Below are positions 6,497-64,000 of a stretch of 64,000 nucleotides of DNA, in pieces. The notes beneath the pieces are model-generated. The model made no database searches. It was not told the DNA's origin and saw nothing but the letters and a program-made list of their open reading frames with translations. The position numbers were made by a program, and so were the translations under genes. Each line of letters starts with the position of its first letter. Position 1 is the stretch's first letter. Source of the stretch: Artemia franciscana (Eukaryota > Arthropoda > Branchiopoda > Anostraca > Artemiidae); assembly GCF_032884065.1 (NCBI RefSeq), contig NC_088883.1:33773354-33837353 (forward strand), given 5' to 3'.

Positions 6497-9400
6497 CTTT
6501 CTCTCTCTCTCTCTTTCTCTTATATAGACTTGTTTTCTAGTATATATGACTTTTGTACTCGTACATAGAGATAGTATATTTCCATATTAAGGAGGGCCAA
6601 CTATTCATGTTGTTTTCTGGTGGTTTTGGGGATCTGTTTCTGTCTTTCTGACTTGAAAGAATTTTGGTGATTGATGAATTTAATGCCTATATAAAAGAAC
6701 TTTGGTGATTGATAAATTTAATGCCTATATGCCAAATGTATTATCGATCGCCTAGATCCTTTTCTATTAGAAAAGATGAAATTAAGTTTCATGAAATTCC
6801 ATTTAATACTTTCATGTTCTTAATTGTCCATAGTATATTCCACTTTTTTATAATCAACGATATTCCTTCGTTTGTCTTTTTGTCAATGTAAGAAGGTAGA
6901 ATTAGTTCGTTCGGACGTTAGTTTTCCAGAGTTGGTTAGTTGGTTTAAATGACCTTAGCTTATTCTTACTTTATAATAACTCGTTCCTTCTATAGGTGGA
7001 GCAGCTTTGCAAGCGCCACGTCTCAGCGCCACTGCTATTGCTTTAAACCTGCTTAAGTCAAAAGGCATAACTGGTCTCTATAAAGGAAATGCAGCTACTT
7101 TACTCAGAGATGTCTTCTTTTCTTTGATATATTTTCCGCTGTTTGCCAATTTAAGGGACCTTGGTCGAACTAATCAAGTTGGTAAGAGAAAATGCTTGTT
7201 TTTGCGTAGCGGATTTTCTGGTGAATATTTTTTTTATGATAAAATTTTTAGTAATATTGAAAGTGATGATGGTATCCATTAAAGTACCAAGGTCATAAAA
7301 ATAATTTTTGTTTTGTTTCGTAGACCTACCTTAGGGCAATTCAGACTTAAAAACCGCAAATTTTTCACATTTTCTTTTGGATGCTTCAAGATTATAAAGT
7401 TTTCAGGAAGGTATCCTATTTTCATCGGTGTTGCTACCCTGGATTTGGAGTCGACCATAAGTTATACTGACTCCGAATTCAGACATTTTCAATATAGCGA
7501 CTCCAACTCCGACTCCATTCAGCAAAAATTTACTCTGACTCCTCGTCTCTGAATCCATAGCCCTGTTTTAAAGCTTCACTTACCTAGATTTTATAAGTTA
7601 TTACCAACTTCGATTCCAGCTCCGACTCCTTGATTCTGAATCCACAGCCCTGTTTTAAAGCTTCATTTACCTAGATTTTATAAGTTATTACCAACTTCAG
7701 CTCCAACTCCGACTCCTCGACTCTGAATCCACAGCCCTGTTTTAAAGCATCATTTGCCTAGATTTTATAAGTTATACCGACTTTGATTCCAGTTCTGACT
7801 CCTCGACTTTGAATCCACAGCCCTGTTTAAAGCTTCATTTGACTAAATTTTAAAGTTATAACCGAGTTTGACTCCGACTTTGACTCTAGACATTAGCAAT
7901 ATTCTGAAGTCCAACTCCGACCCCATTCAGCAAAACTTACAAAAGCTCCAACTCCACATCCCTGGTTGCCACGGATAACTGTGAAAAGAAATAAGCGAAA
8001 TTAAATTAGTCAAATTTGACATTGCTTTTCTTCCAAAAAATTCAATTATTAAAAATCTGTGGTTGCCCAAAAATAACTACACCTTCAAGGGAAATCTACA
8101 CCTTCTTAAGCTGTTTAGTGCCGTATGTTTTTAGCTTATTTTTCGCCGATTTTTCTCCAAAGTTCCTTTTATTTTAATTTAGTGCTGGCTAAACTTCGTA
8201 ACTGCTTACGGATGTCCTTTTCATAAAGAAGTGTTTTTTCGATTCTTCCTAATTTTTAAGGTGCAAGAAACTTTAAGGGTAAACAATCTTTTGATTCCAA
8301 AGATAGCTACATTTTCAAAGGATATGTGCACATTCTGAAGCTATTTGGTGCAATTTGTTTTAGCTTTTTTGCTAAAGTTTTTTGGGCAGTCTCATATTTT
8401 CGTCAGTGTTGCCACGTTGAGTCATGAAATAAACAAGGAAAGCTAATTAGCTAAATTTGGTAACGCTTTTATCCCGTACAAATCCAAAGATTAACAACCT
8501 GTTGAATCCAAGGTCATTTGCATCTTCGAAGGATGTACACACCTTTTGAGGTATTTGGTGCCATATGCTTTTAGCTTTTTGCTGAGGTTTTTTGGGCAGT
8601 CTAAAATTATCGTCAGTGTTGCCACTTTGAGTCATGAAATAAACAAGAAAAGATAATTAGCTAAATTTGACAACGCTTTTATCACATAAAAATTCAAAGA
8701 TTAACGACCTGTTGAATCCCAAGGACATCTACACCTTCAAACGACATATAAATCTTCTGAAGCTATTTGGTGCCATTTGTTTTTAGCTTTTCCGCTGAAT
8801 TTTTTTACTTTTTTTAATTTATTTCATTTGACACCCAATACTACCAAAAACTGCGTAACCTCATATTGATGTCGTTTTCATTAAAAAGTAATTATACGAT
8901 TTTCTCCAAATTTCTTCAAATATAAATAATTGTGTAAGTTTTCACTTAACCGAATCAGACAATCAGATTTCATTTTTCATCGTCCTTGGTACATTAAGAA
9001 TGAAAATTGAAAATTTGGATTCCCATGTAGAAATTAAATCGACTTCCCCAGAAGAACCTTCGTTGTGATTGTGCTTTGCCAAGTCTGTCATCACTAACAC
9101 CCGAACCGAGAAAATTCTCCCACATTATGCCAATATAGGTATTACTGATACAATTATTACCGATCTTATAACCAATACAACTGTTACCGTTTTCGTACGA
9201 TTAAATGTTCAATTAAAATGTAAGGTTTGTAATACAGTATTCAATTGCATCAAGGGAAGCTTGAAGCTCGAGTACCTTCCCTGCAAAAACCCTTACACGT
9301 TAGTTTTCGAACAAGTATTTTCGAACACTAAAAATTATCGATTATTGCCAATGCAGTTATTACCGTTACATTTATCAATAGTGTTCATATCGATTCAATT

Positions 9401-33800: not shown

Positions 33801-36800
33801 AATCTTTTAGTCTTGTGGTCTGGAATAATCAAAAACACTCAAAGTCAAGTAACCGGGCTGAATAGAAGTATTATGAATCCTAGTTGATCGAGAAAATAAG
33901 ATCTGAGCCCCTTTTTTGAGCAAAATAAACTAATTTTCAAGTTTTTTCTGTACATAAGGACCCCCTTGATCAAGTCACTTACAGATATAAATTTCATGTT
34001 ATAAAATAAAACGGTTGGTCCTTTTCAGACGAACTAATATTTAGGAGAAAAAAATATTTTGACTCTTTTATCTCTTTCCCTAAACATAATGTCTGAAGTC
34101 TCCTTGCCGCTCTCTGAATGTTTGAACTCGACTACCCTGTCATTCCCTAAACATTACAGATACCCTACTTTTACTATGAATATACACCAAATATAAATGG
34201 CCAAAACCTTTAGATGGATCGGAGGAGAAGAACTTTTCACCGCCACCCCCTGCCTTCTTCACCAAGTCAAAATTTGGGGTCCAAATGTCACCCCCCGTCC
34301 CTCACACTTTCTTAAAAGTTTCAACTTGATCCCCAAGGCATTTCCCGTGATATTGGGGGCACGCTATTTTGATAATCATAGAGTAGAGTAAAACGCATAG
34401 ATACGCACAGTATGTTTAGATTTACTTCTGGTCCCACACCCAAGTCAAAAACTGAGATCCGTTTGACCGCCCAACAGCCCCCGGAAGTTTCAACTCGATT
34501 TCCTCACTCGTTATTGAGATATTACGGGTATCCTAGTTTCAGACGCGGGGTAAAAACCCGGTGTCTTATCAATTTACATCGCTACTTCATGGTGAATAGA
34601 TTCTAATCCTATTGAATAGATTCGGGCTTAAGTGCCGACGCTTTTAGGCATAAATGAGACAAAATATTTTCAGTCCTTCTCATCCCCTCCGCCAAGTTAA
34701 AATTGGAGGTTCATACGGTACACTAGGCCAATCCACATGGAAGAAACATCAGGACAGACAAGTCGAGACGTGGATAAGCCTTGTTAAGACGGACGTTGGG
34801 CCAATCGGAGGTTTCCGTCTTAATGGCCGCCACTAGGGCCCAAACAAGCTAAAGATAGTAAGATCATAGGCTCACAACCAAGCAGATCGGAGTTCAACCG
34901 TCTGTACTGTCCTCGCACCACGGCGAGTTGCCGGCGAGCTGATGTACTCATTGCAAGATAAGTAAGAAAATCCTCATCCTCCCACATAGGAACTCCCTGA
35001 AAATTTTAACTTGATCTCCCAAGACATTGCAATAACACTTTATTCTAAGAACTTGGCAACACTTACCGTCTTTTGACTTACATCGCTAATTAAGCATGAA
35101 TACATTTTGTTTATCCAATCTTTTCAACACAAAACTTAAAGTCCTCCTCTCCCTCCCCATTTCTTCTCAAGCAGTATCAAATAGCTTCGACTCCATCCTC
35201 CGAGCCGTCTCGGAGATATTGCTGGTAATCTGAATGCACATAATGTATTTTAGTCTAGTCCTATTTTCTCAACAAAGTTATAATTCAATGTCACCTTGCC
35301 CCCCCGCCCCATCCTTCCCACTCAAAACTCACAAAAGACATGATACCCAAAGCTGTTTGACATATTTGGTGATATATCATGTTGACAGCCTGAGAATGCA
35401 TACGCAGGGTTTGGCCCCTGTCTTCTGCCCCTACGCAAGGTTTGAAATCCCCTTGTCCCCCTTTCTTTCCCTATATTTCCTTCCTGAAAAATTTACTCTT
35501 GGTATCGTACATCCAAAACTACAGTTTCAAAACAAGAATAGTTTATTTATTTATCTTTGATCAAATTTTGACAGGCAGATACACCTGATCTGAATCAAGA
35601 AAAACGGAATATTTGTCCAGAGTACCTACCTTCATCAAAAGACGTGAAATCCAACTGCAAAAGTAAAATGCAAAATTTAGCTTAAGACTGATGTCCAATA
35701 TCTAAAAAAAAAAACACAAAACAAAAGAAAAATCAAACAAAAAACAAAACACCAAACTGAGTCGTTAGATGGAATTCTTGGTTGTTGTTTTTTTTTTTCA
35801 GGAGACTAATACAAGCTTCCAGTCCAGCATTACCAACGTGGTACAATTGTACCGTTTTTGGTGTAATTTGGAGGTCCTGGCACAATTGGACTTTTTTTCA
35901 GTGCAATAGAAATTTTCTGGTACATTAGGCTTTTACATGCTCCTTTCTGACTCAGAGATCTTTTCAAGTTTTAGTTTAGCGAAAATTGTCTTCTTATTAC
36001 AGCGAAGTTTCAGTCTTCTGTCCATAAGAAATAAATCAATTTCTTGCAGTACAATTTGAGTTAGAAAACTGGCACAATTTATTTCTAAATTGGCAACACT
36101 ATTCTCGTCTTATAAGTTTCCCTTAGTTTTTGAGATGGTCTTTATTCTTAAATTTCGGTAAAAAGGTAGCAAGACCCTACGTTTCCTTGTTTTGTCCTTA
36201 TGAAAAAGCAAAGTAGTTCCTCCTCCCCCCCTTGGAAGAATATAAATCAACAAGATGGAGGAGCATCAACCAACTTCGAAACCACAAGGACCCCGAGTGA
36301 TGTGATTCCAATTGCTTTTTGCAGAAGAAAAAGATAGGGAAAATAACACACAAAAAGCAATCTTACCTGGAATAGACCTTGCACAATCAGAGACTTAAGG
36401 ACCTCTAGATACTTTGCCTGGTCCCGAGTAATATCACTCAGTCGTTTCTTCGTTTCTTCAATAACATTTCCAACATGATCATCTTGAGCCTTTAAAACCC
36501 TCAAACGAGCTTGATTCAGCATTGTCGAAGATTGACTTGAAAAAAAAACGGTAAGTAAAACTATCAAAGATTGACTTGAAAAAAAAATGTTAGGTAGAAA
36601 CGGTAAAGTAAAATTGTCGAAGATTGATTTGAAAAAGAAACGGTAAAACTGTCGAAGATTGACTTGAAAGGAAACGGTATGTAGAAACGGTAAATAAAAT
36701 TGTCAAAGATGACTTGACAAAGAAATGGTAGGTAGAAACGGTAAATAAAATTGTCGAAGATTGACTTGAAAAAGAAAAGGTAAGCAGAAACGGTAAGTAA

Positions 36801-39800
36801 AACTTTCGAAGATTGACTTGAAAAAGAAACGGTGGGTAGAAACGGTAAATAAAATTGTCGAAGATTGATTTGAAAAAGAAACGGTGAGCAGAAACAGTAA
36901 GTAAAACTGCTGAAGATTGACTTGAAAGAGAAACGGTAGGTAGAACAGTAAATAAAATAGCCGAAGATTGACTTGAAAAAGAAACGGCAAGCAGGAACGG
37001 TAATTAAAACTGTCAAAGATTGACTTGAAAAAGAAACGGTAGGTAGAAAAGGTAAATAAAATTGTGGAAGATTGATTTGAAAAAGAAACGCTAAGTAAAA
37101 CTGTCAAAGATTGACTTGAAAAAGAAACGGTAGGTAGAAACGGTTGATTTTGAAAAAGCGGTAAGCAGAAACGGTAAGTAAAACTGTCGAAGATTGACTT
37201 GAAAAAGAAACAGTAGGTAGAAACGGTAAATAAAATAGTTGAAGATTGACTTGAAAACGGTGGGAAGAAACGGTAAATGAAACTGTCAAAGATTGACTTG
37301 AACAAGAAACGGTAAGTAGAAACGGTAAGTAAAACTACTGAAGATTGACTTGAAAGAGAAACGGTAGGTAGAAACAGTAAATAGAATTGCCGAAGATTGA
37401 CTTGAAAAAGAAACGGTAAGCAGGAACGGTAATTAAAACTGTCAAAGATTGACTTGAAAAAGAAACGGTAGGTAGAAAAGGTAAATAAAATTGTCGAAGA
37501 TTGATTTGAAAAAGAAACGGTAAGTAAAACTGTCAAAGATTGACTTGAATTAAATAAAATAAAATAAAACAAATTTTTTTTAGCTGAAAGTAAGGAGCGA
37601 CATTAAAACTTAAAACGAACAGAAATTACTCCGTATATGAAATGAGTTGTCCCCTCCGCAATCCCTCGCTCTTTACGCTAAAGCTTTTAATTGTTTTAAA
37701 AAGTAGAATTGTGGCAAAGAGTCAAACTTTAGCGTAAAGAGCGAGGGATTGCGGAGGGGAAAACTCATTTCATATACGGAGTAATTTCTGTTCGTTTTAA
37801 GTTTTAATGTCGCTCCTTACTTTCAGCTAAAAAAATTTGTTTTTTTTTTAATTAATTTCTGAACGTTTTTGGATTAATGCATGTTTGGTTTTGGCTCTCC
37901 GCACATAAATTATTAAAATGAAATTGTATATTAATTCTTTTTTGGGCTAAATGGCTTTCTCTTAGTTTTGATCAGACGATTTTGAGAAATAAGGGGTGGA
38001 GAAGGAGGCCTAGTTGCCCTCCAATTTTTCGGTTACTTAAAAAGGCAACTAGAACTTTTACTTTTTAACAAACGTTTTTATTAGTAAAAAATATACGTAA
38101 GTTAAGAATAAACTTACGTAACAAACTTTCATGACCTTATATTTTTATTATGTATACGAGGGGGTTTGTACCCTCGTTAATACCTCGCTCTTTACACTAA
38201 ATCGTAAGTTTTGTCCCAATTCTTTAAGAATGACTCCTGAATCAGAAAGGCCGTAGAATAAATAGTCAAAATTACCAAAAATACTTTAGTATAAAGAGCA
38301 AGGTATTTATCTCCTCCTAAATACCTCGCTCTTTATGCTAAAGTATTTTTAGAACCTCTCATATGCGTAATAATCTCTGTTCGTTTTGAGTTTCAATGCT
38401 ACTTCTTCCTATCATTTGAAAAAACGTTTTCATGTTTATTTTTCATTGTTTTCTTATAGTAATGCTAGAGAATCCTGCGCCCTTGTCATTGAATTTGTCT
38501 TCCCCCATGACAGATTCCTCCAAGGAAAGATCCTCCAACATAGCTCCCTCTCCTCATCCCCACCCCCAAACAAAATAGAATTCCCCTGAAAACGTCCTGT
38601 ACACTTCCCAATAACCATTACTATATGTAAACACTGGTCAAAGTTTGTAACTTGCAGCCCCTCCCCCAGGGATTGTGGGGGAGTAAGTTATCCCCAAAGA
38701 CATAGTTATTATGGTTTTCGACTATGCTGAAAAAAATGGCTATCTCAAAATTTTGATGGGTTAACGTTGGGAAAAAAATGAGCGGGGGAGGGGGCCTAGA
38801 TGCCCTCCAATTTTTTTGGTCACTTAAAAAGGGCACTAGAACTTTTCATTTCCGTTAGAATGAGCCCCCTTGCGACATTCTAGGACCACTTGGTCGATCC
38901 GATGACCCCTGGGGAAAAAATAAAAAAACAAACAAATAAACACGCACCCGTGATTTGTCTTCTGGCAAAAAAATACAAAATTCCACATTTTTATAGATAG
39001 GAGCTTGAAACTTCTACAGTAGGGTTCTCTGATACGCTGAATCTGATGGTGTCATTTTCGTTAAGATCCTACGACTTTTAGGGGGTGTTTCCCCCTATTT
39101 TCCTAAATAAGACAAATTTTCTCAGGCTCGTAACTTTTGATAGGTAAGACTAAACTTGATGAAACTTATATATTTAAAATCAGCATTAAAATGCGATTTT
39201 TTTTATGCAGCTATTGATATCAAAATTCAATTTTTTAGAGTTTTGGTTACTATTGAGCCGGGTCGCTCCTTACTACAGTTCGTTACCACGAACTGTATAA
39301 AAAGAAACGGAAGGTAGAAACGATAAATGAAATTGTTGAAGATTGATTTGAAAAAAAAACAATTGACAATTTGAAAAAAAAAAAAGGTAAGCAGAAACGG
39401 TAAATAAAACTGTCGAAGATTGACTTCAAAAAGAAACGGTGGGTAGAAACGGTAAATAAAATTGTTGAAGATTGAATTAAAAAAGAAACGGTAAATAAAA
39501 TTGTCAAAGATTGACTTGACAAAGAAATGGTAGGTAGAAACGGTAAATAAAATTGTCGAAGATTGACTTGAAAAGAAAACGGTAAGCAGAAACGGTAAGT
39601 AAAACTTTCGAAGATTGACTTGAAAAGAAACGGTGGGTAGAAACGGTAAATAAAATTGTCGAAGATTGATTTGAAAAAGAAACGGTAAGCAGAAACAGTA
39701 AGTAAAACTGTCGAATATTGACTTGAAAAAAAACGGTAGGTAGAAACGGTAAATGAAATTGTTGAAGATAGATTTGAAAAAGAAACGGTAAGTAAAACTG

Positions 39801-42800
39801 TCGAAGATTAACTTGAAAAAGAAACGGTAGATAAAAAAGGTAAATAAAATGGTCGAAGATTGATTTGAAAAAGAAACGGTAAGCAGTAACGGTAAGTAAA
39901 AATGCCGAAGATTGACTTGAAAAAGAAACGGTGGGTAGAAACAGTAAATAAAATTGTTGAAGATTGAATTAAAAAAGAAACGGTAGGTAGAAACGGTAAA
40001 TAAAATTGTTGAAGATTGAATTGAAAAAGAAACGGTAAATAAAATTGTTGAAGATTGAATTGAAAAAGAAACGGTAGGTAGAAACGGTAAATAAAATTGT
40101 CAAAGATTGACTTGACAAAGAAATGGTAGGTAGAAACGGTAAATAAAATTGTCGAAGATTGACTTGAAAAAGAAACGGTAAGCAGAAACGGTATGTAAAA
40201 CTTTCGAAGATTGACAAACGGTGGGTAGAAACGGTAAATAAAATTGTCGAAGATTGATTTGAAAAAGGAACGGTAAGCAGAAACAGTAAGTGAAACTGTC
40301 GAAGATTGACTTGAAAAAAACGGTAGGTAGAAACGGTAAATGAAATTGTTGAAGATTGATTTGAAAAAGAAACGGTAAGTAAAACTGTCGAAGATTAACT
40401 TGAAAAAGAAACGGTAGATAAAAACGGTAAATAAAATGGTCGAAGATTGATTTGAAAAAGAAACGGTAAGCAGTAACGGTAAGTAAAACTGCCGAAGATT
40501 GACTTGAAAAAGAAACGGTGGGTAGAAACGGTAAATAAAATTGTCGAAGATTGATTTGAAAAAGAAACGGTAGGCAGAAACAGTAAGTAAAACTGTCGAA
40601 GATTGACTTGAAAAAAAAACGGTAGGTAGAAACGGTAAATGAAATTGTTGAAGATTGATTTAAAAAAGATACGGTAAGTAAAACTATCGAAGATTAAATT
40701 GAAAAAGAAACGGTAGGTAAAAACGGTAAATAAAATGGTCGAAGATTGATTTGAAACAGAAACGGTAAGCAGAAACAGTAAATAAAATTGTCGACGATTG
40801 ACTTGGAAAAGAAATGGTAGGTAAAAACGGTAAATAAAATTGTTGAAGATTGAATTGAAAAAGAAACGGTAAGCAGAAACGGTAAGTAAAACTGTCGAAG
40901 ATTGACTTGAAAAAAAAACGGTAGGTAGAAACGGTAAATGAAATTGTTGAAGATTGATTTGAAAAAGAAACGGTAAGTAAAACTGTCGAAGATTAACTTG
41001 AAAAAAAAAGGTAGGTAAAAACGGTAAATAAAATGGTCGAAGATTGATTTGAAAAAGAAATGATAAGTAGAAACGGTAAATAAAATTGTCGAAGATTGAC
41101 TTGAAAAAGAAATGGTAGGTAGAAACGGTAAATAAAATTGTTGAAGATTGATTTGAAAAAGCGGTAAGCAGAAACAGTAAGTAAAACTGTCGAGGATTGA
41201 CTTGAAAAAAAGAACGGTAGGTAGAAGATTAACTTGAGAAAGAAACGGTAGGTAAAAACGGCGAATAAAATGGTCGAAGATCGATTTGAAAAAGAAACGG
41301 TAAGCAGAAACAGTAAGCAAAACTGTCGAAGATTGACTTGAAAAAGAAACGGTAGGTAGAAACGGTAAATAAAATTGTCGAAGATTGATTGTAAAGAAAG
41401 TTGTAAGAAAGAAAAAGTGAAAATACTACTTTTGGAAGTTTTATAGAAGCATCTGAGGAAAACCGAGGAACGTCAATATTATTGTTTTTTCCCCTTAATT
41501 TCCATCAAATGGCTATCAGACTTCCATAAGTTCTTCAAAATCACAAATTTTTGCACAATAAATACTCATTAACAGCTCTTGACTCACTTTTGCCCCACAG
41601 TGCATTACAAAAAACTCTTTGAATAGCCTGGTCTCAAGGGCTATCTGTTTCAGATTTTCAGGGAATTATCTGAGTATTCCTCAGGTTTCCAGCACAGTTC
41701 TTTTTAAAATTCCTTACTTTCTTACAATCATTTGCAGACTCCAGAGAACACTCCAAAGAGCTCATAGTATGAAAAATACTCAGGAGTGAAATTTTGAAAA
41801 ATATGCACGTGTACTTTGTTGTTGGGTAGATATATTTAAGGCATCTATAGATATTTTAAAGAAGAGACAAATTGTTTAGTTATTATCAAAGCATGAAGAA
41901 GTCAACTGAAAAGGAGATGATTTATCTAGAGATTTTGATTGTGCAGGAGTGAGTAGGAAGAGCTGTATTGGTACCGGCCAGCCTAGTGGCCTTAAACAGC
42001 TGGGGACAGGCATCTCATGTACCCGTACGTCCCACAATCAACAATAATGTATTAATTTATAAAATAGTGTGCACCCATTGTTTGCTGACTGGAAGGTAAT
42101 AGTGCTTCCAGTGGCTAGTTTTTCTAATGAAGGAGTCAAAGAGGTAAAAGGACTTGATAATAGTCTATATACCTCTCTATAATTTTTGGAACTGGAACTG
42201 GATCATTTAGCTTTTCCATTCAGCATTACCATATTTGAGACCAAAAAACATATTTTAGAAAACTAAATTGTCCCTTTATGATTATGATTCTACTATAACT
42301 ATTATTGTATTAGAAATATACTTGTTGCTTACATCTTCTTTTGTAGTTCTACTGCCTTTTCTTTTCTGTCGTAAGTCTCCATTATCTTCAGTCTATGCTG
42401 TTGCACAAGTCTCCCTTTCTCAATATTGAATTCCTCCTCTGCTTTAGCATCGATTTCTTCTACTTTCTCATTAGCTTCTTGCTCAATAAAACCCATCATT
42501 TGCTTAATCTATGAAAAAAATTAAATTTAAACTTGAAAAATTAGTTCAACTGCTGCTCAACAAAGCCCATCATTTACTAAAACTATGAAACAAATTAAAT
42601 TTGTGCTTAAATTATTAGCTAAATCCTTGCTCAAGAAACCCATAATTTACTTAATCAATGAAAAAGAATATATTTGTAAAATTAGGTAAATTCCTGGTCA
42701 ATGAAACCCATCATTTGCTTCAAACATGAAATAAAGAAAATTTATACTGAAAATATTAGCCCAATTCTTGCTCAATAAAGCCCATCATTTGTTTTAACCA

Positions 42801-45800
42801 AAAATAAATAAAATTTTAAATTAAAACATCAGCTCAATTTTTGCTCAATAAAGCTCATCATTTGCAAATCCATGAAAAATATAAAATCCATGCTTGAAAA
42901 TTAGCTCAATTCTTCCACAATAAAGCCCATCATTTGCTTAATCTATTTAAAAAATTATGTTCTTTTTTTATACAATTTTAGAAAGACAAAAAAGTATCTT
43001 CAATTTGATTAAAATTCTCGGAATTCCAACGGGGAGGATCTTTTGTTTTTCCAATTTTCTTTAAAAAAAACATTTTTTCTGAGTGCCTGGTATTTAAAAA
43101 TAACATTCTTTTATAAAAAACTTGAGAGTAAAAAAAAATGAATCTTTTGAGTGTTTGTACCAGCCTAGTTATCCATATACTTTAGTAATGCAGCCTTTAG
43201 GTTTAAGATGTAAAAATAGTCAATACTTGTGCAAAAGGTATACTTGAAAACAATGTTTGAAAACATTAATGAAAATTAAAGCTCTTAGACACAATATCCT
43301 TCCAAATAAAATTTCATTAAGATCCGATCACCTGTTCGTAAGTTAAAAATACCTCATTTTTTCTAATTTTTCCGATTTAACTCTCCCCCCAGTCCTCCCC
43401 AGATGGTCGAATCGGGGAAACGACAATTTTTAATTTAATTTGGTCGGTTCTTGGTACGCCTGCCACATTTCACCGTCCTAGCTTACCTGGAAGTGCCTAA
43501 AGTAGAAAACTGAGACAGACACAGACACTTGGTAGGTTTGGCCATAAAAAGCCAAATCAAAGAGGAAAAATCCAATCAAACTGGGCAGACCTGCAGCCAC
43601 ACACACACACCCGCCTCGGTGCCTGGGGCAACACCCCAGTCCCTCCCTTTGAACAGCTCTGACCATACTGTTACATTTATGGTTTTGTTGCTGCACTATT
43701 CTATTGTCTTAGCAATGAGACTACCCTTTGGCCTGCTCTGTTTTTGTTTAAAATAAATTAAAAATAAACTTTTTTTCCCAGATTTGATTGCAACAAGAAA
43801 CATACTGACAAGACATTCATTAACAGAGAGTACCATACTTGTAGGCAAAATAGCTAGTAAAATCTTTTAAAATATACAGCTGAAAAAAAAATTTCTCTTA
43901 GTTATTTTATTTATTTTCTCCCCTTTTTTAACTGCCTTGCTGATTAAAAAGAAACCCAATTATTCCCACTTTTTCTGGGCATTATTCTTCTTCAGCAACA
44001 AAACAAATCTTCTTCTGTGACTGCTTATCTCCTTTATCTTACTAATGCTCATGATTGACAAGAGACAATATAACTAACACTCTCATTTCAAGACAGCCTT
44101 TTGTGTCCAGGGGCGGATCCAGGGGCAACCCCCAAATTCTCTTATACGCCCTCATTCCGTTTTTTAAATCTTTTTTAATCCAATTTGGTCAATTATTGGT
44201 TTGATTGTCATGTTAGACTCCCCAAGATGTTTCTCTAGATCCACCTTTGTTTGTCTGACAATTAAACTGGACATGACTCTGAAATCAAGTTTTGCTAAAT
44301 CTTTAGAAAGTAAGAATTTTGCTATTAGTTTTTAGAGTAAATTTACATTGTAAGACTAAAATAAAATACAGCTTATTTGGGGCTTTCTTCTCCCTCAGTT
44401 ACACTTCTCATCTTTTTCTAATTGAGCCTTGACAGAACCAAGACAGTCTGGGTGCCTATCCAGGGGTCCTCATGGGGCTATTGTCCCCTACGATTTTGAA
44501 AATTTCCTTTTTTTAGTTTTACTTGAAAAAATATAAAATACAACAAAATTACTTCCTCTTCTAGATTTTGAAAAATATACCATTTTTGTATCTTCAATAA
44601 AAAAGAAAAGGAAAAAAATTCTTGCCCCTCTCTCTATATTTCTGCAAATCGAAATCTCTGTACCTATCTCCTTTTGAGGTTAGAAATACCATTAAACTGA
44701 AATAATAGTTGTATATGTTACAGTTAAACTGGAGGTGACTCTGATAATCAGGTTCATAGAATTTTGCTAAATTTAATAAGGTACAATAAGAATTTTGTTA
44801 TTGTTTAGGATAAACTTATATTGCAAAACCATAGTTAAATACAGCCTCTTCAGTGGTTTTTCTTCTTCAACTATATTTCTCTTTTCTCTTATAATGTGTC
44901 AAGAGCAATAGAGTTCCCATCTCCTTTTAAGGTTTATACAAGATGAAGTTTTCAAGAAATTATTAGATGTTGAATGGAATGGTGTTCCCTGGAAATACCT
45001 GTGGGATGTGTTTTATGTTTCATCATTCATATTATCAAGTATGGAGCAATTAACAGGTCAAGATGGATCTATATTTGCTCCAAAGTGCAAATTAAGGTAA
45101 TTAATTACGGTAATATGCAGAAAAATACTAGTTTTGCTGGTGTTTTTTCAAGATTTAGATTATAAACCAACCACTAATGAGAAGTGAGGACAAACAAATA
45201 ATACAAATCACCAAAGCCAGCAATTTTTGTAGATACTGGGATACATGAATGTTCTATTCAAATACACAACAGTTCTTGCAATATAATTAGCTCTGAAGTG
45301 CAAATTAAGGTAATTAATCAAGGTAATATGCAAAAAAATACTAATTTTGTTGGTGTTATTCAAGATTTAGATTACAAACCAACCACTAATGAGAAGTGAG
45401 GACAAACAAATAATGCAAACCAACAAAGCCAACAATTTTGTAGATGCTGAGATATATGAATGTTCTATTCAAATACATCACAGTTCTTGCAACTAATTTG
45501 CTCTGAAGTGCAAATTAAGGTAATATAACAAGCATGTTATAGCAGTTTCATACCCCTCCCACTTAAGAGCTAGGCAGCACCCTAAGTACCTATACAAAAG
45601 TTTGCTGATTTGTTGTTGTTGTTTTTTTCAAATAGGCTTTATTTTGTGTTATGAACCAATGTTGATGAAAAATTGTCCTTTTGCTAGCAAGTGTGATTTA
45701 GGGTAAATCTAAGCACAAAAAAATAATACAAACCCAAAAAATTAAAAACACTTTTGTACATAAAATAGCCTATAAATACAAAATACTAGGTTACATAGGA

Positions 45801-58823: not shown

Positions 58824-60111
58824 TTCATAAGATCAAGTTATTAACCTTTTCATATCTGTGTGTCAGGAAGGGGGTAAATATACCATGAAAGTTTTGGTAG
58901 GATTGTCCTGAGTTGTTGCTTAGATGTAAACCCCTCTTTCCTCTCTAAGGTTGTTGATCTAATATAAAATTCAATAATATTGACTAATATAAAGACCTTG
59001 GGTTGCTAACTAACAAACAACGCCATTTTAAGGGAATCTTTATGTGTCTTCTCTTTGTGGATGACTAGTAGAAAACCATTCATTTAAATCTTAAGGAAAA
59101 TGCAAGGGGAAACTGCATTTTTAGGCCCAAAAATGCTCCATTTTGTTTCCAGCTTCTGACCCCTTCTTTTGACTTTTTTTTAAAGTGATTTCTGGCTGTC
59201 TTTTACTTGCTGATGGCTTGCAGTGTTAGTTTTAAATTTAAACACGATTCCTGAGGGAACTGCAGTTTTTTGTTCTTGGGATACTCCAATTTGGGATCTC
59301 CTTATGACACCCCCACCTCTCAGCCTTGTATTTTGCTTGAAGAAAAATCCAATTTAAAATGATCTGCAAGAGTCTCTCTTTACGCTCATCAAACAAACCA
59401 CAGTTTATTACAGGTTCAGGCATCATGTAGGGAAATCCACATCTTTAGGCCTAAAAATGGTATATTTGTGTTAAATTCAACCCTCTGCTGTTAACCATCA
59501 AACAGACTAAATGCAAAACAATGCTATCTTAAACTTTGTCTGTCTTTTGTTTATAAATGGTAATCAAAACATAGTTTATTATGAATTATAGCATCATTTA
59601 AGGAAGAACTACATTTTTGTGTGAGTGATCTTTATTCACTCTTGTTGAAGAGCTAACTTAAATTGGCTATCTTAATATAATTCCTCAAACTTTTGAAGTC
59701 TTGTTGAAGCAATAATTTTTGATAGCGTTTATTTTTCTTTTTGAAAAACATATTTTTAGATTGTGTTTTGGTTTTCTTATGTATTTTATGTTCTGTGGAA
59801 TCGTTCCATGTACTTACCAGGTTAACTCCAGATTATTCCCAGAGGGTTTGAATTGGAGAAAACACTTCCAATCTTATTTATATATTTGTTTCTGAAAAAC
59901 AGCTTGAATGAGGCCTATAAAGGAGATCTATCAATCACTCCATTGAAGCCATCAGTAAATGTGATCCCTTCCCTGATTTGGATTAAATGAAAAAAATCAT
60001 CGTTGATTATTAGGAGGGTCGTCATTGTATAAGAGAGTCAAGAGTTAACTGGAAGAGTGCCTGGAACGCATCCACGATTTACATCTTCTTCTTCATCTTT
60101 GAAAATAACTT
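58819..60111. repeat. MOB1-like gene upstream region with ~3 diverged repeats
   Basis: Phrases of the type GCATCAT-TA(A)GG-AA-C-ACAT-TTT(A)GGCC(T)AAAAATG recur near 59100, 59425 and 59605. Nothing coding. The promoter and any 5' UTR exon of the MOB1-like gene should lie here but cannot be located. Confidence 0.45.
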
Positions 60112-60124
60112 TTCATTCTTTCAG
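60112..60124 (+). promoter_or_regulatory. Possible 3' splice site just before the MOB1-like start codon
   Basis: CATTCTTTCAG ends one base before ATG (AG at 60123-60124). A pyrimidine-rich stretch precedes it. If used, the coding exon begins at 60125 and the gene has a 5' UTR intron. Confidence 0.5.
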
Positions 60125-60125
60125 A

Positions 60126-60770
60126 ATGAGTTTCCTTTTTGGGAGTAAAAATGTCAAGACATTTAAACCCAAAAAGAACATCCCAGAAGGAACCCATCAG
60201 TATGACCTGATGAAGCAGGCTGCTGCAACTCTTGGCTCTGGCAATCTACGATTGGCTGTTGCCCTTCCAGATGGTGAAGATCTGAATGAATGGATTGCTG
60301 TAAATACAGTCGATTTCTTCAATCAGATCAATATGCTCTATGGAACTATAACTGAGTATTGCACAGAAGAAAGTTGCACAGTTATGTCTGCAGGGCCTAA
60401 GTACGAATACCATTGGGCTGACGGACAAACAGTGAAAAAACCTATCAAGTGCTCTGCCCCAAAATATATAGACTACTTAATGACCTGGGTACAAGATCAG
60501 TTAGATGACGAAACTCTCTTTCCCTCTAAAATTGGAGTTCCTTTTCCAAAGAATTTTTTGTCAATTGCGAAAACGATACTGAAAAGATTATTCCGAGTTT
60601 ACGCTAATATTTATCACCAGCATTTTAGTCGAATTGTAGATCTTGGAGAGGAGGCACATTTGAATACTTCTTTTAAGCATTTCATATTTTTTGTTGATGA
60701 ATTCAGCCTTATAGATAGGAGGGAGTTACAACCTTTGCAAGAACTCATTGATAATTTTGTTAACAACTAG
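60126..60770 (+). CDS. MOB1: MOB kinase activator 1-like protein (Mats/MOB1), uninterrupted frame
   Basis: 214 codons from ATG to TAG. MOB1 binds and activates NDR/LATS kinases in the Hippo pathway. The match to human MOB1A (216 residues) is near-identical over long stretches: MSFLFG, KTFKPKKNIPEG, TLGSGNLR, EDLNEWIAVNTVDFFNQINM, YEYHWADG, KCSAPKYIDYLMTWVQDQLD, DETLFPSKIGVPFPKNF and EEAHLNTSFKHFIFFVDEF. The Thr12 and Thr35 positions phosphorylated by MST kinases are kept. Zinc ligands Cys79, Cys84 and His166 are kept, but the fourth, His161 in human, is Asn here (YANIYHQHF against YAHIYHQHF). Human MOB1 genes have several coding introns; this frame has none. It could be a functional intron-poor gene or an old retrocopy. 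The open frame, the conserved sequence and the acceptor-like site upstream favour a working gene. The ATG is chosen by homology; an in-frame open stretch extends upstream to about 60057 without a supported start. Confidence 0.93.
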   Translation: MSFLFGSKNVKTFKPKKNIPEGTHQYDLMKQAAATLGSGNLRLAVALPDGEDLNEWIAVNTVDFFNQINMLYGTITEYCTEESCTVMSAGPKYEYHWADGQTVKKPIKCSAPKYIDYLMTWVQDQLDDETLFPSKIGVPFPKNFLSIAKTILKRLFRVYANIYHQHFSRIVDLGEEAHLNTSFKHFIFFVDEFSLIDRRELQPLQELIDNFVNN

Positions 60771-62734: not shown

Positions 62735-64000
62735 GTAATTGCAATGAATGGGTAGGTCGCTTGTTTGTTGATTTTTGTGTTGTTTTTTTTTTTTTTTTTT
62801 TTTTTTTTTGCTTAGGGATCTTATTATCCTGCAATTTAATCATTGTGACGTATCCAATGTGCTGCATATCTTGTTTACATCTTTTTTTAAAAGCACTGCA
62901 ATGAATTTGTAGCTCTGGCGTTTTCATTCGATTGGATACCTTATTAGTGTTCCTTATAGTCATTGTGGTGTATCCAATGGGCTGCATATCCTTTTAACAT
63001 CCTTTGCTGAAGCATTGCAATGAAACAATAGCTCTGCTGATTCCATTTGGTTAAAGATCTTATCATGGTTGTGTTTAGTCATTGTGATGTATCCAATGGG
63101 CTGTACTTCTTTTTGACATCCTTTTCTAAAGCATCGCAGTGAATCAGTAACTCGGCTGATTTCATTTGGTTAAAGATCTTCTTTTTCTGTTTAGTCATTG
63201 TGATGTATCCAATGTGCTGCATATCCTTTTAACATCCTTTGCTGAAGCATTGCAATGAATCAGTATCTCTGCTGATTTCATTTGGCTACAAGATCTTATT
63301 ATGGTTCTGTTTAGCCTTTGCGATGTATCTAATGTGCTGCGTGTTCTTTCAACATCCTCTGCTGAAGCTTTGCAATGAATCAGTAGCTCTGCTGGTTTTG
63401 TTTGGTTGGGGATCTCATTAAGGTCCTGTTTAGTCATTGTGATGTATCTAATGTGCTACATATCTTGTTAACATTCTTTGCTGAAGCATTGCAATGAATC
63501 TCTAGCTCTGACGATTTCGTTCAGTTGGAGATCCTATTATTGTTCTTTTTAGTCATTGTTATGTATCCAATGTGCTGCATATCCTTTTAACATCCTTTGC
63601 TGAAGGATTACAGTGAATCAGTATCTCTGCTGATTTCATTTGGTTACGAGATCTTGTTATGGTTCTAGTTAATCATTGTGATGTATCCAATGTGTTGCAT
63701 ATCTTGTTAACATCCTTTGCTGAAGTATTGCAATGAATCAGTAGCTCTACTGATTTCATTTGGTTATAAGATCTTTTTATGTTTCTGTTTATCCACTGTG
63801 GTGTATCTAATGTGCTGCATATCCTTTTAACATCCTCTGATGAAACATTGCAATGAATCAGTAGCTCTACTGATTTCATTTGGTTATAAGATCTTTTTAT
63901 GTTTCTGTTTATCCACTGTGATGTATCTAATGTGCTGCATATCCTTTTAACATCCTCTGATGAAACATTGCAATGAATCAGTAGCTCTGCTAATTTCATT
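62735..64000. repeat. Tandem array of a 120-bp unit, at least ten copies, continuing past the window
   Basis: GATGTATCCAATGTGCTGCA or a variant recurs every ~120 bp (about 62849, 62969, 63089, 63205, 63325, 63441, 63562, 63681, 63802 and 63922). Each is followed by CCTTTTAACATCCTTTGCTG, AAGCATTGCAATGAATCAGT, AGCTCTGCTGATTTCATTTG and GATCTT. A T34 run interrupts the first unit. Because 120 is a multiple of three, a 40-residue repeat reads on the - strand (ELLIHCNASAKDVKRICSTL) across some units, but stops break it in others. Confidence 0.95.

Follow-up and report, generated by a model that had tools for sequence, protein, structure and literature searches.

The second intron of a gene for V-ATPase subunit E, on the minus strand of a 64,000-nucleotide (nt) stretch of DNA from the crustacean Artemia franciscana (the window), is largely a tandem array in which units join a copy of the intron's 3' end to the first bases of exon 3. 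The array is an extreme-sized member of the little-studied class of mirages, minisatellite-like tandem duplications of an intron/exon boundary that two papers describe in lancelet genes (PMC3087553; PMC3902484), and as far as the literature was searched it carries the class into a new phylum. Very probably it arose neutrally, from a tandem duplication that straddled the acceptor and then expanded as an intronic minisatellite. A first-pass annotation, made from the letters of the window, had described about 60 tandem acceptor units of about 52 base pairs (bp) in intron 2. This observation was confirmed and its interpretation partly supported; an inserted element that splits the array, another array lying in intron 1 and the further copies of the gene had been missed (Table 1).

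Table 1. Positions of the gene's exons, arrays and inserted element, counted from the first base of the window.
Feature	Position	Strand	Basis
V-ATPase E exon 3, 169 nt	36367..36535	-	tblastn; Pfam PF01991; genome matches
Intron-2 array, proximal part, ending at the putative true acceptor CAAG|TCAATC	36536..37543	-	cyclic alignment, unit counts
Inserted repetitive element of ~1.7 kb, splitting the array (ends approximate)	37544..39292	.	break in unit alignment
Intron-2 array, distal part	39293..41399	-	cyclic alignment, unit counts
V-ATPase E exon 2, 176 nt, donor at 42332	42333..42508	-	tblastn, genome matches, Pfam
Intron-1 array, six units of 73, 72, 73, 69, 73 and 74 bp	42509..42942	-	cyclic alignment; TRF (Tandem Repeats Finder)

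The gene was identified by exons 2 and 3, each of which matches Pfam PF01991 (exon 2, E 1.4e-15, profile positions 1-52; exon 3, E 6.6e-16, profile positions 54-109). With a Drosophila V-ATPase E protein as tblastn query, five exons were matched in order in the window, the first of them weakly (E 0.031), and likewise five in a second genomic copy of the gene (copy A). In the stretch fetched for a third copy (copy C) there were four exon matches, the last one missing. Intron 2 spans from the donor at 42332 to the acceptor preceding 36535, and joining the exons there gives the frame AT|T CAA TCT TCG ACA ATG (I-Q-S-S-T-M), in agreement with the conserved protein. Since the conserved frame (I-Q-S-S) is restored at this junction, the terminal unit of the array is likely to be the true acceptor of exon 3, as had been proposed. 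No retrocopy of a processed mRNA with exon 2 joined to exon 3 was present among the six genome matches, all of which were single exons.

Units were delimited by cyclic alignment against a 52-bp unit phased on the start of exon 3. This gave a chain that runs from window position 41399 down into exon 3 with a score of 3399 (3304 and 2405 in the two other copies). Rows of at least 20 bases and at least 75% identity were counted, with the rows of the inserted element and one 11-nt fragment removed, and intron 2 of the window was thus found to hold 64 full or partial units, 41 of them 52 bp long, 9 of 39 bp and 14 others of 20-51 bp. The 52-bp unit looks like four 13-bp blocks, one of which is absent from the 39-bp units. 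Its core is a polypyrimidine tract with CAA(G/A/T) after it, leading into the first 13-15 nt of exon 3. Nucleotides 1-15 of exon 3, TCAATCTTCGACA(A/G)T, correspond to block 1 and two further bases, after which unit and exon diverge, the exon continuing as GCTGAATC and the unit as TTTATTTACC. As the common block runs to exon 3 base 15, coding bases are included in it. Roughly half of the units had been said to keep the AG, and indeed 36/64 end in AAG, the others in AAA (19), AAT (6) or irregularly (3); the exact motif CAAG|TYAATC occurs in 33 window units. On the plus strand of 36536-41399, many units show donor-like GGTAAGT, GGTAAGC or GGTAGGT, which corresponds to a repeated CTTACC on the gene strand. 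CTTACC also occurs in the 5' end of U1 RNA.

In the genome (1,270,528,402 bases in 6,468 contigs), the array was found tied to this exon. For a 19-base unit pattern, TCAATCTTCGACARTTTTA, 52/52 listed matches lay on a single chromosome, in three copies of the V-ATPase E gene, and a control with the reversed pattern had 0; among these listed matches, none represented the intron-2 array outside the three copies. Exon 3 stands at the end of the array in each copy. Because the exon side of the unit encodes conserved V-ATPase E residues (PF01991, tblastn), the boundary between intron 2 and exon 3 is taken to be the source of the array, as the first-pass annotation had argued.

The same gene carries a second case. 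In intron 1, each of six units consists of an end resembling the exon 2 acceptor and the first ~33 nt of that exon; the alignment score in the window was 658, compared with 42 for the top of 20 base shuffles, and six corresponding units are present in copies A and C. These units are more diverged than those of intron 2, so the intron-1 array is probably older or less homogenised. Taken together, the two arrays have several of the properties by which mirages are recognised: tandem units cross an intron/exon boundary (taking in nt 1-15 of exon 3 and nt 1-33 of exon 2), they are of minisatellite size and number more than two (52/39 bp in 64 units; ~73 bp in 6 units), and the splice signal is kept by many but not all intron-2 units. 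The intron-2 array also differs in length between gene copies, with cleaned counts of 64 in the window, 61 and 50 (alleles and paralogues are not distinguished here, and two of the short rows counted for copy A may be fragments of single units).

How such an array could be born is suggested by a pair of HSP60-like loci. These loci, L038 and L039, are 94-95% identical; L039 has a single acceptor, and in L038 the ~82 bases ahead of the acceptor and the 32 exon bases after it are duplicated in tandem (114 bp), with 3 bp (TAG) shared at the junction and an in-frame TAA stop in the upstream exon copy. The single state of L039 would be ancestral, and L038, seemingly a recent birth, resembles the expected first stage of a mirage. 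On the neutral explanation that we prefer, a tandem duplication would by chance straddle a 3' splice site and copy the intron end and exon start as one unit. Because a complete exon with an intact acceptor would remain next to the exon body, the protein would be kept and the duplication tolerated. The upstream copies would then become free intronic DNA, able to expand and decay, and slippage, unequal exchange and conversion could bring them to ~60 and rearrange them.

Whether such repeats are peculiar to this gene was addressed by a survey of exons from three conserved gene families, whose names are our reading of Pfam matches: CCT/HSP60 (75 matches, 30 fetched), kinesin (122, 30 fetched) and myosin (66, 10 fetched). 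Removal of 18 loci as copies reduced the first 60 loci to 42 non-redundant exons, and the 10 myosin loci, taken in without a check for redundancy and scanned at a less strict cut-off, brought the total to 52. Boundary-spanning local copies were found at 5/52 acceptors and 2/52 donors. Those at acceptors were the HSP60-like duplication (L038; two copies), a 140-bp array of 7.7 copies in a CCT gene (L040), two copies of 190 bp in a kinesin gene (L073), one old copy, ~73% identical, in 4/5 of the loci of a further kinesin group (L058), and a 135-bp myosin array (L078) of at least 9.3 copies, which reaches the edge of the fetched stretch. Each of the donor cases (CCT L031 and myosin L081) consists of one copy lying some hundreds of bases downstream. 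Two further loci gave observations of a different kind: at L082 part of a myosin exon, without the boundary, has an upstream copy as well, and kinesin locus L066 holds an intronic minisatellite with a repeated donor-like TTGTAGGTAAGAT, ~361-782 downstream, on the gene strand, from where the match starts, for which no exon overlap was seen in the stretch inspected.

Local duplication is common in the surveyed introns. Similar local repeats contained 8.1% of intronic points (42 loci), and TRF arrays with a period of at least 30 covered 4.4% of intron bases (52 loci) while overlapping 4/52 acceptors and 0/52 donors. Neither the enrichment at acceptors (5/52 against 8.1%, P 0.41; 4/52 against 4.4%, P 0.19) nor the depletion at donors (2/52, P 0.20; 0/52, P 0.10) was significant. 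As ~8% of ordinary intron points also lie in local repeats, acceptors are not detectably favoured, and the observed rates are those that undirected duplication predicts. This bears on the idea that duplications are born preferentially at 3' splice sites, for instance through R-loops or pausing at the polypyrimidine tract. Such a directed origin, which we hold to be improbable, would fit the TRF counts at acceptors and donors, but the acceptor rate is close to background, the donor rate is not significantly low, and selective loss at donors would yield the same asymmetry.

Several points nevertheless weigh against the neutral reading. Two successive acceptors of V-ATPase E carry arrays, and of the exon-touching arrays of at least 6 units that were found, all four (V-ATPase E exons 2 and 3, CCT L040 and myosin L078) lie on acceptors and none on donors, which hints at an acceptor bias in a sample too small for a test; both facts are also what a directed origin would lead one to expect. 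The splice boundaries of the survey were placed by script and eye, without transcripts, and the use or neglect of the repeated acceptors in intron 2 is likewise read from sequence. Finally, alternative haplotypes may have been assembled into one scaffold as three gene copies, because the homology of copy C ends at a run of 100 N.

The repeated acceptors could also be there for a purpose. On this account, which we judge quite improbable, they would slow or regulate the splicing of intron 2 or yield alternative inserts, such as 13 additional residues from the acceptor at -39. There is no shortage of candidate decoys, with 33 CAAG|TYAATC sites in the window and 33 and 27 in the other copies, the units are largely stop-free, and in each of the three copies use of the nearest decoy, at -39, would insert 13 residues in frame and without a stop; moreover, a Caenorhabditis elegans study links an intronic minisatellite to alternative splicing (PMC4039745). 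However, an in-frame open insertion would result from just 1/33 decoys in the window, 1/33 and 3/27 in the other copies, and unit numbers vary between copies. Column frequencies, pooled over the three copies and including a few rows of element tail or short fragments (one to two per copy), gave a mean commonest-base frequency of 0.917 for exon-derived columns and 0.923 for the remaining ones, and the acceptor G stood at 0.625, with just one other column more variable. The exon-like part and the AG are therefore not notably preserved. For lancelet mirages, too, two papers report that regular splicing is left undisturbed (PMC3087553; PMC3902484).

The functional roles that the first-pass annotation had offered as speculation thus found no support in the poorly kept G, the few in-frame decoys and the equally variable columns. 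General coding use of the stop-poor array was considered as a separate candidate and rejected, as TTAATC variants hold stops and few decoys are in frame. We infer that the decoys are mostly ignored, splicing probably taking place at the terminal acceptor through exon definition from the exon 3 donor, and that no function is likely to maintain the array; its sequence neither needs a splicing function nor excludes one.

Comparison of the three near-identical gene copies (W, the window; A; C), which lie within 400 kb, suggests that the array has been active in recombination. W and C are 97.0-97.8% identical upstream and 98.9% downstream. Between W and A, identity is 99.1% over the 10 kb that begin with exon 3; in the array it is 98.5% (proximal part) and 93.1% (distal part), in the upstream sequence adjoining the array 92.7-93.6%, and farther up 77-89%. 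A comparison fixed at the 700 bp upstream of the array yielded 80.8%, apparently lowered by ~170 extra bases in A. Because the W-A identity steps at the array, copy A looks like a mosaic joined at or within it, as expected if the array recombines, and the intron-2 array accordingly looks recombinogenic. The inserted element lies inside the array of both other copies as well and is 98.5-99.1% identical between copies. It has internal inverted stretches, and its AGTAAGGAGCGAC motif, with one mismatch allowed, recurs at window positions 2350 and 2570.

The homology of copy C stops exactly at a 100-N gap, and this, together with three near-identical copies so close to one another, is what one might see if the array were an assembly artefact of collapsed or expanded repeats or of stacked haplotigs. 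We consider this extremely unlikely for the array, as its units are set apart by numerous substitutions in ordered patterns, array and inserted element occur together in all three copies, and the intron-1 units are diverged, although the gene copy number itself may be artefactual.

A broader proposal is that Artemia is unusually active in the birth and expansion of boundary-spanning tandem duplications, with a bias to 3' splice sites and about one exon in ten carrying a duplicated acceptor. We regard it as doubtful; if true, gene halves would be exchanged at these arrays, acting as hot spots of recombination, and acceptor turnover and intron gain would draw on them.

Elsewhere in the window, an uninterrupted Mob1/phocein-like open frame lies at 60033-60770 (Pfam PF03637, E 2.4e-80), possibly an intronless retrocopy. 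A mitochondrial-carrier-like exon was found on the plus strand at 6980-7282 (Pfam PF00153, E 8.4e-7), and a 120-bp tandem array of ~10 copies at 62817-64000 runs past the window edge.

A crustacean with several mirages offers a view of how splice-boundary repeats arise and whether they become new introns, and intron 2 is a natural test of how the spliceosome chooses one acceptor among dozens of near-identical ones. The survey loci could also serve to test the idea of intron gain by tandem duplication, a model associated with Rogers, with Zhuo et al. in 2007 and with Gao and Lynch in 2009 (as cited in PMC3087553), in which an internal duplication is said to supply the splice signals. Artemia is alike in the duplication of splice signals, but shows no gained intron. 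In potato, a report on RdRp describes a boundary-crossing tandem duplication that gave rise to an intron (Ma et al. 2016, PMC4974935). In both cases the duplicated stretch extends over an intron-exon boundary and takes in branch site, polypyrimidine tract and acceptor; a new intron resulted in potato, whereas in Artemia nothing tested shows that a unit has turned exon or intron. No crustacean mirage came up in the titles and abstracts of the open-licence literature searched, in which the mirages found are all from lancelet, besides the potato boundary duplication.

The first-pass annotation had known of no repeat class with this design, which was wrong, because lancelet mirages have already been described. 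In the lancelet papers they are reported from Adh3, the globins BflGb6 and BflGb9, TnC and PGBD5, at 3' or 5' boundaries, with AG or GT kept by many but not all units (PMC3087553; PMC3902484). The globin mirage has 6 and 3 units in two BflGb6 haplotypes, its inner units are homogenised and its generating mechanism is called unclear, and somatic instability is reported for the Adh3 mirage by way of citing papers (PMC3087553; PMC3902484). The Artemia array shares with these cases the boundary-spanning minisatellite, the partial retention of AG and the variable copy number. It differs in belonging to a crustacean, in its ~60 units against the 6 and 3 of the BflGb6 haplotypes, in the presence of two arrays in one gene and of further cases in several unrelated genes, and in being split by an inserted element.

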